Part shown: positions 12,141 through 17,877 of the stretch, piece after piece
Layout of the letters: each line of letters begins with the position of its first letter
Position numbering within the stretch: the first letter of the stretch is position 1
Source of the DNA: an uncultured Lachnospiraceae bacterium
Lineage (GTDB): Bacteria; Bacillota; Clostridia; Lachnospirales; Lachnospiraceae
Length of the DNA: 64,000 nucleotides
Assembly (NCBI GenBank): GCA_930972465.1
Contig: CAKNHF010000007.1
Location: forward strand, 1 to 64,000
Direction: 5' to 3'
Notes under the pieces: generated by a model
Database searches by the model: none
What the model was told of the DNA's origin: nothing
What the model saw: the letters and a program-made list of their open reading frames with translations, nothing else
Made by a program: the position numbers and the translations under genes

Positions 12141-13268
12141 TTACCAGCTCGTAAAGAAAAGATTGCCGCCGATGTTTACTCCGTCTCTGTCAGTGGAGGG
12201 AGCGTACAGGAAATAATAGCAGTCAGAAACCGCTGCTAGGCGGGCACCGTTGATCGCGTCCTGAGCCACCTGCAGTGCAAGACTGCTGGGACCTCTTTCG
12301 AGCCGGTCATCAAGACGGCCTGTCCAAACAGGCTCGAACTGACCGCTGGCGTAGATTACAGAGGTAATGCTGTTGCCGAAACGCGGGCTTTCAACACGAT
12401 TCATGATTACAGTGGCGACAGCGAGCATTGCGTCATAATCCCCGATCGCTTCGCAGTCCAGAAGTGCTGCAAATAACGTCAGTTCATCGGTCGAAGCGTT
12501 AACTGAGCCGCCGTTTATGACAGAGTTATCATAGCTGCCTCCCGACTGAGAACCCTGGGCGCTGGCGGCCGCCTCCTCGGCTGCCTTGCGTGCGGCTTCT
12601 TCCTCTGCTGCTTTCCGCGCGGCTTCCTCGCGGGCGATCCGTTCAGCTTCTTCTTTTTTGGCTTTCTCAAGCTTTTCCTGCACATCTGCAAGATTTGTGG
12701 ATGTAGCCTCAGCCTTGGCCTGCAGCTCTGCCTGCTGATCCTCAAGACTGCTCTGAAGTTCTTCGAAGGACGCCTGCTGCTCTTCGAGAGCGGTCTTCTC
12801 GTCTTCTATCTCCTGATGGATGTTCTGAAGATTTTCAAGAGCGTTCCGGTCATATTCACTCAGATTTTCAATGAATTCAGCCTTGTTGAGGAAATCACTC
12901 ATGTTCTCAGCGGAGAAAAGCATCTCCAGGAGTGTTGCATTGCCGTGCTCATACATATATTTAATACGGGATTTCATGTCTTCATACTGCTGAGCTTCAT
13001 TTTCTTCGGCCTGCTTCAGGTTATCGGAGGTCTTCAGAATTTCACCGTTAAGGATCTCTACCTGCATTTCGGTAGAAGAAATCTCTTCACTCAGGTCGAG
13101 AATATCCTGATTGATCCCCTCCAGTTCATTTTCAAGGGCAGAGGTTTGGTTTTCCAGATTTTCTATCTCATCATTCGCCGCGTTGGCGGGAAGGATGGAC
13201 AGAATGACCGCGAGAGAACAGAGCAGGGCAAGCCCGGTCCTGATTCCTCGTTTTTTGTAGAGTTCCAT
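12141..13268 (-). CDS. Secreted coiled-coil cell-wall hydrolase (SleB domain)
   Basis: A 375-residue exported protein. It begins with a signal peptide (LALLCSLAVILSILPANAA, cleavage near residue 31), followed by a long CwlO/PcsB-like coiled coil (about 33-215), an Ala/Glu/Arg-rich repeat segment (EEAARKAAEEEAARKAAEEA), a Gly/Ser linker, and a C-terminal SleB/Hydrolase_2 domain from about 255. There the catalytic region reads ALLDCEAIGDYDAMLAVATV and MNRVESPRFGNSI, as in spore-cortex-type lytic enzymes. The start at 13268 gives a clean signal peptide; an upstream ATG adds 16 residues of no signal character. It may be controlled through its coiled coil, as CwlO-type hydrolases are by FtsEX. Confidence 0.85.
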   Translation of the reverse strand: MELYKKRGIRTGLALLCSLAVILSILPANAANDEIENLENQTSALENELEGINQDILDLSEEISSTEMQVEILNGEILKTSDNLKQAEENEAQQYEDMKSRIKYMYEHGNATLLEMLFSAENMSDFLNKAEFIENLSEYDRNALENLQNIHQEIEDEKTALEEQQASFEELQSSLEDQQAELQAKAEATSTNLADVQEKLEKAKKEEAERIAREEAARKAAEEEAARKAAEEAAASAQGSQSGGSYDNSVINGGSVNASTDELTLFAALLDCEAIGDYDAMLAVATVIMNRVESPRFGNSITSVIYASGQFEPVWTGRLDDRLERGPSSLALQVAQDAINGARLAAVSDCYYFLYAPSTDRDGVNIGGNLFFTSW

Positions 13269-13346
13269 AATCTCAAATCCTTTCTCAAAACAGTTGATCG
13301 CCCAACAAAAAGTCAAGCGAGCGTATTTCTCGATTATCGGCTTACT

Positions 13347-13540: not shown

Positions 13541-14389
13541 GTGGAACAGAAGATAAAAATGATCGGACTGGATCTGGATGGGACGCTGCTGAATGAAAAG
13601 AAGGAACTGCTTCCATACACAAAGGAAGTGCTGCGGAGAGCTCTGGATAAAGGAGTTGTCGTACTGATTGCGACAGGCCGTCCGTGGATGGGCATACCGG
13701 AAGAACTCAGGACGTTTCCCGGGATGCGCTATGCCCTTACGTCAAACGGGGCAAGGATCCTTGACATCCGTGAGGGGACTGTGCTGATAGAACAGCTTCT
13801 CTCCAGAGAATCAGCCAAAAAAGCATTGGAAATCTGCGGAAAGTATGATACATTACAAGAGGTATATTACGACGGTCAGGGCTATGCTTCCGCAGATAAA
13901 ATGGCACATGTGGAAAAGTACCACCACAATCCGAACATGTGGGAATATCTGAGGACAACGAGAATCCCGGTTCAGGATATTTCCCGTCTGGTGGATGAAG
14001 AAGAAAGAGGACTGGATAAAGTGCAGGCACTGTTTGCGGATATGAATGAACGCAGACTCGCCTGGGATGAACTGAGCAGAGTGGACGGACTGGAGCTGGT
14101 CGGATCGCTGGGATACAATATAGAGGTCAATGCTGCGGGAGTGAATAAAGGAACCGGGCTGATCGAGCTGGGAAAGCTTCTGGGCATAAAACGGGAAGAA
14201 ATCATGGCCTGCGGCGACGGGGATAATGACACGGTCATGCTCCGTGAAGTCGGCTTCGGAGTCGCCATGGCGAATGCGGAAGATCAGGTAAAGGCTGCGG
14301 CAGACTACATAACAGACAGCAATGACAATGAGGGCGCGGCAAAAGCGATTGAGAAATTTGTCCTTGGAGGAGGAAAAGGAATATGTTAG
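13541..14389 (+). CDS. Cof-type HAD-IIB sugar-phosphate phosphatase
   Basis: A 282-residue haloacid-dehalogenase-family hydrolase of the Cof/YidA type, acting on phosphorylated sugars or cofactors in the cytoplasm. Motif I is GLDLDGTLLN near the N-terminus, motif II is ATGRPW, and motif IV is GDGDNDTVML near residue 228, followed by the VAMANAEDQVK signature. The GTG at 13541 follows GAAAGGAA and was preferred over a GTG at 13523. Its last 7 bases overlap uppP, so the two are probably translated together, though a functional link is not shown. Confidence 0.88.
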   Translation: MEQKIKMIGLDLDGTLLNEKKELLPYTKEVLRRALDKGVVVLIATGRPWMGIPEELRTFPGMRYALTSNGARILDIREGTVLIEQLLSRESAKKALEICGKYDTLQEVYYDGQGYASADKMAHVEKYHHNPNMWEYLRTTRIPVQDISRLVDEEERGLDKVQALFADMNERRLAWDELSRVDGLELVGSLGYNIEVNAAGVNKGTGLIELGKLLGIKREEIMACGDGDNDTVMLREVGFGVAMANAEDQVKAAADYITDSNDNEGAAKAIEKFVLGGGKGIC

Positions 14390-15210
14390 ATGTATTGAAG
14401 GTAATTATTTTTGGAATCGTGGAAGGAATTACGGAATGGCTTCCGATCAGCAGTACCGGGCATCTGATCCTTCTGGAGGAACTGCTGAAACTTAATCAGA
14501 ACCAGGAGTTTCTGGATATGTTTTATGTCGTGATACAGCTGGGAGCCATTCTGGCTGTGGTCGTGATTTATTTTCATAAACTGAATCCGTTCTCGCCGAA
14601 GAAAACCCAGAAACAGAAAATGATGACGGTACAGCTTTGGATAAAGGTAGTGATCGGATCGATTCCGGCGGCGGTAATCGGAATCCCGTTCAATGATTTC
14701 ATAGAAGAAAAGTTTAACAATGCGTATGTCGTGGCGGCGATGCTGGTGGTTTACGGTATACTTTTTATCGTGATCGAGAACTATCAGAAAGACAAGGAAC
14801 CGAAGGTGACAAAGCTTTCTCAGCTGACCATACCCATGATCCTTATCATAGGAGTATTCCAGATGCTCGCTATGATACCCGGCACGTCACGGTCGGGAGC
14901 GACGATTGTGGGAGCGCTCCTTCTTGGCGTGTCGAGAGCGATTGCGGCGGAATTTACTTTCTTCCTTGCGATACCGGCAATGGCCGGAGCCAGTGCCGTG
15001 AAGCTGATACATTTCGGATTTAACTTCACGGCCATGCAGGCGTTTCTGCTTCTGCTGGGTACGGCCGTTTCGTTCGCGGTATCTATTGTTGCGATTAAGT
15101 TCCTGATGAGATACATTAAAAAGAACGATTTTAAAGTATTCGGATGGTATCGTATTGCACTCGGAATTATTGTGTTCCTGTTCTTCGGAATCCAGGCAAT
15201 CCTTTCCTGA
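14383..15210 (+). CDS. uppP: Undecaprenyl-diphosphatase UppP (BacA)
   Basis: UppP dephosphorylates undecaprenyl diphosphate so that the lipid carrier can be reused for peptidoglycan and surface polysaccharide; it also gives bacitracin tolerance. The 275-residue membrane protein has the two family motifs: EGITEWLPISSTGHL near residues 14-28 with the catalytic Glu, and PGTSRSGATI near 165. It has about eight hydrophobic segments. It overlaps the HAD gene by 7 bases. The large polysaccharide locus downstream depends on the same carrier. Confidence 0.96.
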   Translation: MLDVLKVIIFGIVEGITEWLPISSTGHLILLEELLKLNQNQEFLDMFYVVIQLGAILAVVVIYFHKLNPFSPKKTQKQKMMTVQLWIKVVIGSIPAAVIGIPFNDFIEEKFNNAYVVAAMLVVYGILFIVIENYQKDKEPKVTKLSQLTIPMILIIGVFQMLAMIPGTSRSGATIVGALLLGVSRAIAAEFTFFLAIPAMAGASAVKLIHFGFNFTAMQAFLLLLGTAVSFAVSIVAIKFLMRYIKKNDFKVFGWYRIALGIIVFLFFGIQAILS

Positions 15211-15360: not shown

Positions 15361-17094
15361 ATGAAGTATGAGAGAATAGAAAAAGCGGTGTTTCTTGAAC
15401 GTCCGAACAGATTTATTGCCTATGTGAATCTCGGAGGAAAAAAGGAGACCGTTCATGTTAAGAATACGGGGCGGTGCGCGGAGCTTCTTGTACCGGGGGC
15501 CTCTGTTTATATACAGCGAACCGCAAATCCGGAGAGAAAGACCAGGTGGGATCTGATCGGAGTGGAAAAAGGTACACGCCTGATCAATATGGATTCCCAG
15601 ATCCCGAACAGGGTGGTAGAAGAATGGATCCGGGAAGGGCATATGTTTGACAATGTAACCATGCTGCGGCCGGAGAAGTCTTACGGGAATTCGCGTTTTG
15701 ATCTGTATGTGGAGGCAGACGGGAAGCGGATCTTCATTGAAGTGAAGGGAGTGACGCTTGAGGAGAACGGAGTGTGCAGATTTCCGGATGCGCCCAGCGA
15801 CAGAGCCGTCAAGCATCTGGAGGAGCTGATGAAGGCGGAAAAAGAAGGCTATGAGACTTATGTTTTTTTCGTGATTCAGATGAAAGGCGTCCGGTATTTT
15901 ACGCCAAATACGGATACACATCCTGCGTTTGCCGAAGCGCTGAGAAGAGCTGCGGAAGGCGGTGTGAGAGTGATGGCCTGTGACTGTGAGGTGACGCCGG
16001 ACTGTATACGGATAGACAGCCCTGTGGATGTGGTGCTGGGAAGTCCGGAACTGAAGGAATCCGCCGGCCCCCTCGTGGAATGGTTCCGGGCCAGCAAGAG
16101 GGATCTCCCGTGGAGGAAACGGATGGATGCGTACAGGGTATGGATTTCAGAGATTATGCTGCAGCAGACAAGAGTGGAGGCGGTAAAGCCTTACTATGAA
16201 CGATTCCTGGAGGAGCTGCCGGATGTTAAGGCTCTGGCCGAGGTCCCGGAAGAGCGTCTCCTGAAGTTGTGGGAAGGGCTCGGCTACTACAGCAGAGCCC
16301 GTAATCTGAAGAAGGCGGCACAGGAGATTATGGAGAGATTCGGCGGGAAATTTCCGGACAATTATGAGGATATACGTTCGCTGAGCGGAATCGGAAATTA
16401 TACTGCGGGGGCGGTGAGCTCATTTGTTTACGGAATTCCGAAGGCTGCAGTTGACGGGAATGTGCTGAGAGTAGTGACAAGACTTACAGCAGATTCTGAC
16501 GACATTACAAGGGCGGCGACTCGCACAAAGATCGAAAAACTGATTGAGGAAGTAATTCCATTCGGTGAGGCGGGAGATTTCAATCAGAGTCTGATCGAGC
16601 TGGGGGCGGTAATCTGTCTGCCGAACGGAGAACCCAAATGCGGAGAATGTCCGGTAAAAAGTTTCTGTCGGGCATATGCGCAGGGAAGTCAGAGAGAGTA
16701 TCCGGTGAAGAAGAAGGGAAAGGAAAGGCGGATTGAGAAAAAGACGGTATTTCTTTTCTGTGACAGTACGACTGTGGCGATAAAGAAACGGCCGGACAGG
16801 GGACTTCTGGCCGGACTGTATGAATTTCCGAATGCGGAAGGACATTTAAAACAGCGGGAGGCAGTGGAATATGCAAAGAGCCTCGGACTTGCGCCGATCC
16901 GGGTAAAGAAGCTGGAAAATGCAAAACATATCTTCAGTCACGTGGAGTGGCATATGATCGGTTATGAGATTCTGGTGGACGGACTGGAGAAAGCGGAGAA
17001 CGAGGATATGATCTTTGCCGGGCGCAGGGATCTGGAAGAGAGATATCCCATGCCGTCTGCTTTTGACGCGTATCTGCGCGCTGTGAGGGTCTGA
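15361..17094 (+). CDS. SfsA-MutY fusion: SfsA nuclease domain plus A/G-specific adenine glycosylase
   Basis: One uninterrupted 577-residue protein with two complete domains. Residues 1 to about 228 are SfsA-like: NRFIAYVNLGGKKETVHVKN, LVPGASVY, and the nuclease-type core RFDLYVEADGKR followed by IEVKG and FPDAPSDRAVKHLEEL. From about 235 it is MutY, which removes adenine opposite 8-oxoguanine: RDLPWRKRMDAYRVW, catalytic Glu in ISEIMLQQTRV, helix-hairpin-helix LSGIGNYTAGAV, catalytic Asp in VDGNVLRVV (about 364), an iron-sulfur cluster C-x7-C-x2-C-x5-C (about 418-436), and the C-terminal FSHVEW of the 8-oxoG-recognition domain. Normally these are separate genes. Start at 15361 follows GGGAG; upstream in-frame codons add nothing recognisable. 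Confidence 0.9.
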   Translation: MKYERIEKAVFLERPNRFIAYVNLGGKKETVHVKNTGRCAELLVPGASVYIQRTANPERKTRWDLIGVEKGTRLINMDSQIPNRVVEEWIREGHMFDNVTMLRPEKSYGNSRFDLYVEADGKRIFIEVKGVTLEENGVCRFPDAPSDRAVKHLEELMKAEKEGYETYVFFVIQMKGVRYFTPNTDTHPAFAEALRRAAEGGVRVMACDCEVTPDCIRIDSPVDVVLGSPELKESAGPLVEWFRASKRDLPWRKRMDAYRVWISEIMLQQTRVEAVKPYYERFLEELPDVKALAEVPEERLLKLWEGLGYYSRARNLKKAAQEIMERFGGKFPDNYEDIRSLSGIGNYTAGAVSSFVYGIPKAAVDGNVLRVVTRLTADSDDITRAATRTKIEKLIEEVIPFGEAGDFNQSLIELGAVICLPNGEPKCGECPVKSFCRAYAQGSQREYPVKKKGKERRIEKKTVFLFCDSTTVAIKKRPDRGLLAGLYEFPNAEGHLKQREAVEYAKSLGLAPIRVKKLENAKHIFSHVEWHMIGYEILVDGLEKAENEDMIFAGRRDLEERYPMPSAFDAYLRAVRV

Positions 17095-17244: not shown

Positions 17245-17877
17245 ATGGACGAGAAAACAGAATTATCCAGGCAGCAGAAGAAATCAAGAGAGACAAGAGA
17301 AAAGATATTTCAGGCGGCAAAAAGAATCCTTCAGAAGAAGGGATATGAGGAACTGTCGATCAAGAATATATGTGAGGAAGCAGGAGTTTCCAACGGAAGT
17401 TTTTATCATCATTTTAAGACGAAGGATGATCTTCTCTCGTACTATATAGAAGACCAGCCGACGATTAATCCGGATGTCCTTGAGATGCCGCAGGATGTAG
17501 AAGGGGCGAAACAGGGAATCATAGGCGTATATATGAATTATGTGAAGTACTGCCGGGAGCTGGGGGTAGAATTCATGTCCGGATACTATGATACGAAGAA
17601 CCAGGCACTGAATGCGGCTGAGCGGTCAGAACGCCCTTATCCTATCGTCACGGTGCAGACTTATGTGGAGAAAGCGGTGGCGGCAGGCGTTATCCGTCTG
17701 AATGTGGGAATAGAAGAATTTACTACGGATATCCGGATGATTGTGATAGGAAATGTGTTTGAATGGTGTGTGCGCAGCGGAAAAGTGGATTTTGAAGGCA
17801 ATATGAGCAGGCTCCTGGGGAAATATCTGGACAGTACGCTGTGTCCGGGAGATGGGAGTGGAACGGATGAAATATGA
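17245..17877 (+). CDS. TetR/AcrR-family transcriptional regulator
   Basis: A 210-residue regulator. The N-terminal DNA-binding domain (about residues 13-60) has RETREKIFQAAKRILQKKGYE, then a helix-turn-helix ICEEAGVSNGSFYHHFKTKDDL typical of TetR. The C-terminal ligand-binding half shows no clear match to a named subfamily, so its effector is unknown. The end overlaps the next gene by 11 bases. The overlap suggests that it controls, or is made together with, the lipid kinase, and its own promoter may be the target. No operator palindrome was identified with confidence. Confidence 0.88.
   Translation: MDEKTELSRQQKKSRETREKIFQAAKRILQKKGYEELSIKNICEEAGVSNGSFYHHFKTKDDLLSYYIEDQPTINPDVLEMPQDVEGAKQGIIGVYMNYVKYCRELGVEFMSGYYDTKNQALNAAERSERPYPIVTVQTYVEKAVAAGVIRLNVGIEEFTTDIRMIVIGNVFEWCVRSGKVDFEGNMSRLLGKYLDSTLCPGDGSGTDEI

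Follow-up and report, generated by a model that had tools for sequence, protein, structure and literature searches.

Gene and domain architecture of the locus

The window analyzed here is a 64,000-nucleotide stretch of DNA from an uncultured Lachnospiraceae gut bacterium, and on its forward strand a single stop-free frame, spanning 15319/15361 to 17094, joins an SfsA protein to a MutY adenine glycosylase. The ATG at 15361, shortly preceded by a GGGAG, gives a protein of 577 residues, and an alternative start at ATG 15319 would give one of 591. The gene, its parts, and its immediate neighbors are as follows.

14383..15210, + strand: upstream neighbor uppP/bacA (PF02673), context outside the fusion
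15361..17094, + strand: sfsA-mutY fusion gene, 577 residues plus stop in a single stop-free frame
15394..15591, + strand: SfsA N-terminal OB-fold domain, residues 12-77 (SfsA_N PF17746, E 6.1e-23)
15598..16002, + strand: SfsA PD-(D/E)XK nuclease domain, residues 80-214 (PF03749, E 4.6e-49)
16033..16080, + strand: junction, residues 225-240, the 16 residues from the end of SfsA to MutY Trp241
16081..16668, + strand: MutY catalytic domain, approximately residues 241-436 (TIGR01084, PF00730, PF00633)
16744..17079, + strand: MutY C-terminal NUDIX-like domain, residues 462-573 (NUDIX_4 PF14815), with an FSH motif at 525-527
17245..17877, + strand: downstream neighbor, a TetR-type regulator (PF00440), context outside the fusion

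A sequence-only reading of this stretch had described one frame of 577 codons holding a complete SfsA and a complete MutY, and the Pfam and NCBIfam scores bear this out: the window protein scores 180.7 bits against the sfsA model (TIGR00230, cut-off 126.45) and 328.3 bits against the mutY equivalog model (TIGR01084, cut-off 286.5). The MutY catalytic domain carries Glu264, Asp365, a helix–hairpin–helix, and four Fe-S cysteines (C419/C427/C430/C436), with HhH-GPD at residues 262-396 plus HHH in the Pfam profile search, and the junction contains the start of the first MutY helix (229-245 in the predicted model). The fusion is the sole SfsA match and the sole MutY match above the cut-off in the window genome, which is 86% complete.

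Relatives of the neighboring genes recur at other fused loci. With duplicates kept, a uppP/bacA relative occurs at 30 and a TetR-type relative at 35 of the 57 fused loci of at least 9 kb, versus 0 of 8 adjacent-pair loci in each case. Elsewhere in the window, a frame at 12141-13316 on the minus strand combines a PcsB-like coiled coil with a cell wall hydrolase domain.

Distribution among genomes

The spread of the architecture was followed in 299 Lachnospiraceae genomes, one per genus of the family to which the window belongs; the closest named relatives of the window protein are those of Mediterraneibacter (79-80% identity). SfsA is found in 155 of these genomes and MutY, at E 1e-45 or better, in 213, such that 125 have both, 30 have SfsA without a strong MutY match, 88 have MutY only, and 56 have neither. 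The two occur together more often than independent draws predict (Fisher p 2e-4, and p 0.018 with the 34 fused genomes removed), in tests that treat genomes as independent and take no account of shared ancestry or genome completeness.

The genes are fused in at least 34 of the 155 SfsA-bearing genomes, all of them among the 125 with both, a figure that is a minimum because 6 of the 125 were left unplaced, their SfsA matches falling outside those listed. Two of the 34 fused copies are incomplete: one has a TAG within its MutY part (G005, locus L120) and the other stops within MutY at a contig end (G113). In 18 further genomes sfsA lies directly 5' of mutY on the same strand as two genes, and in 67 of the 125 the genes are distant or on different contigs, a class in which contig ends may conceal some adjacent pairs. 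A second contig collection, overlapping in part with this sample, yielded 58 loci for the window protein, of which 38 are fused, 1 is adjacent, and 19 contain MutY only. Within one genus (g23), a long SfsA frame is present in G022, G486, G501, G533, and G563, and G568 has no SfsA match.

A frameshift or assembly error joining two adjacent genes had been named as what might undo the initial observation, and it is ruled out. The fusion is not an artefact because at least 34 of 155 genomes contain it and because both domains share a frame at 76 of 124 loci; with duplicates removed these loci give 71 distinct fused frames, that of the window included, all of which were read. The related concern that relatives would have separate genes with a stop between the domains is borne out for 18 of the 155 SfsA genomes, in which the genes are adjacent, but not for the 34 or more that are fused, and the fusion proves to be conserved in dozens of genera. 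Outside Lachnospiraceae no SfsA–MutY fusion appears among the matches listed for 295 genomes of the order, 291 of the class, and 299 of the phylum. Adjacency, counted by eye in the class and phylum matches listed, is likewise seen in 0 of 37 non-Lachnospiraceae genomes with both genes; the nearest approach is G872, with mutY first and approximately 9 kb between the genes.

Conserved residues, linker, and predicted structure

With duplicates removed, SfsA residues D114, E127, and K129 are invariant in 71/71 fused, 18/18 adjacent, and 26/26 separate copies, so that the acidic and lysine residues whose retention had been in question are kept in every fused protein. This invariance bears directly on the notion that the SfsA part is chiefly a DNA-binding or regulatory module that raises the affinity of MutY for DNA without cutting it. 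SfsA does bear an OB-fold domain, and non-specific DNA binding by the Escherichia coli protein is reported in work cited by PMC1189080 (in excerpt), but a nuclease triad retained in all fused, adjacent, and separate copies would be unexpected if binding alone mattered, which makes a role of this kind very improbable.

The MutY half is equally intact. Residues E264, D365, Y347, and C419/C427/C430/C436 are invariant in 71/71 fused, 18/18 adjacent, and 38/38 separate copies; E264 and D365 correspond to the catalytic Glu and Asp of MutY, Y347 to its Tyr, and the four cysteines to its Fe-S ligands. The FSH motif of the MutY C-terminal domain serves in 8-oxoguanine recognition, and F[ST]H is present in the NUDIX-like domain of 70 of the 71 distinct fused frames.

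In 54 of these frames the linker has 16 residues, and across all 71 it varies between 14 and 62, the longest being that of L014; a rigid geometry is thus unnecessary in some fusions. The possibility that MutY is also translated on its own, from a start codon inside the gene, was considered and is weak at most: an in-frame ATG occurs near the junction in 19 of 71 fused frames, and a start codon with a Shine–Dalgarno match of at least five bases in 11, the window not among them.

Predicted structures of the window protein (pLDDT 88.7, pTM 0.79) and of a distant fused protein (pLDDT 86.6, pTM 0.74) are confident within each domain and fair as wholes. In a structure search, the window model resembles SfsA of E. 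coli (4dap, TMt 0.89), the SfsA–DNA complex of Pyrococcus furiosus (4dav, TMt 0.87), and MutY–DNA complexes. Among fused proteins the mean identity is 61.7% for SfsA and 60.6% for MutY, and the pairwise identities of the two halves correlate at 0.72, as they should if the two halves are inherited together. The corresponding values are 0.19 for adjacent and 0.09 for separate genes, and the comparison serves for description only, given that the groups differ in how closely their members are related.

Origin of the fusion and apparent loss of SfsA

Several two-gene loci lie a very short step from the fused form. In L012 and L096 SfsA is followed by exactly TAA-ATG and then MutY, and in L094 and L098 one in-frame stop separates the two. 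A closely spaced sfsA–mutY pair in Lachnospiraceae would thus have become a fusion through loss of the intergenic stop codon; both the two-gene and the fused forms are seen, and the direction from pair to fusion seems the natural one to infer.

In a joint SfsA and MutY tree of 78 rows, built by a quick method with SH-aLRT support only, 31 fused rows form one clade (SH-aLRT 98) with no two-gene pair among the sampled rows, and a neighboring clade (99) holds 12 more fused rows together with two adjacent pairs. The remaining fused rows, L014 and L114, sit among adjacent pairs. Grouping all 45 fused rows in a single clade is compatible with the joint tree (p 0.113), and on this count several independent fusions are not favored; 43 rows as one clade, a set that leaves out L014 and L114 and was picked after the tree was seen, do no worse than the free tree (p 0.541). 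These two values point to one main origin of the fusion and possibly two more. On the joint tree the starred branches make two or more state changes unavoidable, and the fused label needs 5 changes there, 6 on the SfsA tree, and 9 on the MutY tree, the single-domain trees being likewise quick and agreeing with it in outline.

The MutY proteins of L068/L069 and of L070 nest within the fused clade of the MutY tree, tied to fused relatives by branches with support of 96 and 99, and a genome search finds no SfsA match in these three genomes, where unrelated genes lie 5' of mutY. SfsA was apparently lost twice with MutY retained, once in L068/L069 and once in L070; alternatively, MutY may have been transferred into genomes that had no SfsA. 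Ahead of MutY, the frame of L068 contains a repeated stretch resembling EEKHVS.

These histories might be expected if a shared operon, and then a shared frame, served joint expression only, with the job of SfsA unrelated to that of MutY and the fusion near neutral. The adjacent pairs are just one stop codon short of fusion, two apparent losses of SfsA left MutY in place, over half of the genomes that have both genes keep them apart, and a few fusions have long linkers of up to 62 residues. Such an account fits less well with a well-supported clade of 31 fused rows (SH-aLRT 98 on a quick tree) devoid of two-gene pairs among the sampled rows, with a 16-residue linker that is near constant, and with a parallel fusion of SfsA to DUF123. 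Joint expression without mechanistic coupling is nevertheless a substantial possibility, and the main rival to joint action in repair.

Other fusions of SfsA and MutY

SfsA has other fusion partners. In another family (f157), 15 of 17 genomes have a near full-length SfsA–DUF123 fusion, one of the 15 with a TGA within the match; of the exceptions, G1154 has a partial match and G1166 lacks one. The representative on which the DUF123 profile was run, and the only one, is the first of the two below.

L179:1262-2461 (G917): SfsA–DUF123 fusion
L166:449-1900 (G672): SfsA with a YjjG-type noncanonical pyrimidine nucleotidase, a single case among the 16 genomes in that family

DUF123 presumably corresponds to COG1833 and is, as we take it, a DNA-processing domain, so that on this understanding the SfsA–DUF123 fusion may likewise hint at DNA processing.

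MutY is also found in frame behind other domains: a DNA-deoxyinosine glycosylase at L173:1220-2881 (G162, Lachnospiraceae), giving two glycosylases in one protein, an extra NUDIX domain at L174:1142-2839 (G1015), and a HAD-type hydrolase at L175:1121-3331 (G1034).

Discussion

The window encodes a real, conserved architecture that joins two known families. Its SfsA part resembles the SfsA family (COG1489; PF03749, PF17746; TIGR00230; 4dap, 4da2, 4dav) in full length, in fold, and in its D ... E-V-K residues, but SfsA proteins of solved structure are free-standing, whereas here a 16-residue junction leads from the SfsA C-terminus into MutY. Its MutY part is approximately 40% identical to solved MutY–DNA complexes and is like MutY (TIGR01084; 4ypr, 1rrq) in full length, in its four Fe-S cysteines, and in its C-terminal NUDIX-like domain; it differs in bearing a predicted nuclease at its N-terminus. 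No description of an SfsA–MutY fusion was found in the literature searched, which lay within sources other than subscription journals and preprints.

Several studies have placed SfsA among nucleases by prediction. In the excerpts consulted, it is predicted to combine an OB domain with a PD-(D/E)XK nuclease whose active-site motif is D and E-x-K (PMC1189080), and it is grouped with PD-(D/E)XK nucleases (PMC2743648, PMC1913061). SfsA and MutY are both named in PMC8230064 and in PMC3135505, the latter of which lists SfsA in a table of regulator families. Nuclease activity of the family appears in the sources searched as prediction and annotation only, and no settled substrate for SfsA was found in that literature. 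The fusion with MutY links SfsA to base-excision repair.

There is some reason to think that the SfsA half works with the MutY half in base-excision repair, which is the best reading of these data, at a confidence that stops a little short of even. The product of the fusion gene would be a two-enzyme base-excision-repair protein, in which the MutY half, judging by family membership and intact catalytic residues, would excise adenine opposite 8-oxoguanine. The SfsA half, with its predicted nuclease and OB domains, would be kept beside MutY and act on DNA during that repair, its likeliest target being the MutY product or a nicked or gapped strand derived from it. The sequence-only reading had suggested that SfsA processes DNA at, or is guided to, sites of 8-oxoguanine repair; the part of this interpretation that stands is that the fusion is real and conserved with its SfsA nuclease residues intact, and the functional part is carried forward here tentatively. 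Tethering SfsA to MutY would be useful rather than obligatory. Tight coupling is argued against because 67 of 125 genomes keep the genes apart, 30 of 155 have SfsA without a strong MutY match, L068–L070 have MutY without SfsA, and 32 of the 34 fused genomes contain the AP endonuclease Nfo.

The last of these observations also bears on the proposal that SfsA is itself an AP endonuclease that cuts the abasic site left by MutY, making the fusion self-sufficient. The match to the SfsA fold and the intact catalytic triad are consistent with it, as is a precedent in which an endonuclease III-type glycosylase and a predicted nuclease share one chain (COG1833, MJ0613). For that fusion, the excerpted account (PMC1564403) proposes joint action in base-excision repair, with the GIY-YIG part cutting beside the damage; the excerpt also places it in two archaea only, and it differs from the present fusion in its glycosylase, its nuclease fold, and its reversed domain order. 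However, Nfo is found in 32/34 fused genomes (the two without it are 77% and 87% complete) versus 28/34 genomes that have MutY but no SfsA. There is accordingly no missing step in those 32 genomes for SfsA to fill, absence of AP endonuclease IV is unsupported as a cause of the fusion, and SfsA seems to be no substitute for Nfo, the enzyme by which AP endonuclease was checked; the self-sufficient form of the proposal is improbable.

Joint action of the two halves in repair remains the preferred reading, and a broader view can be built on it. SfsA at large might be a base-excision-repair nuclease, coupled to MutY for trimming or incision at A:8-oxoG in Lachnospiraceae and working elsewhere with other DNA-processing partners such as DUF123, although this generalization is speculative and on present evidence rather unlikely. 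What the fusion offers is a hint that SfsA has a nuclease role in the repair of oxidized DNA and, through its natural union with a repair enzyme whose substrate is known, an indication of where to look, namely A:8-oxoG DNA or the products of MutY. If true, this would reveal an unrecognized bacterial nuclease step in the repair of oxidized guanine.
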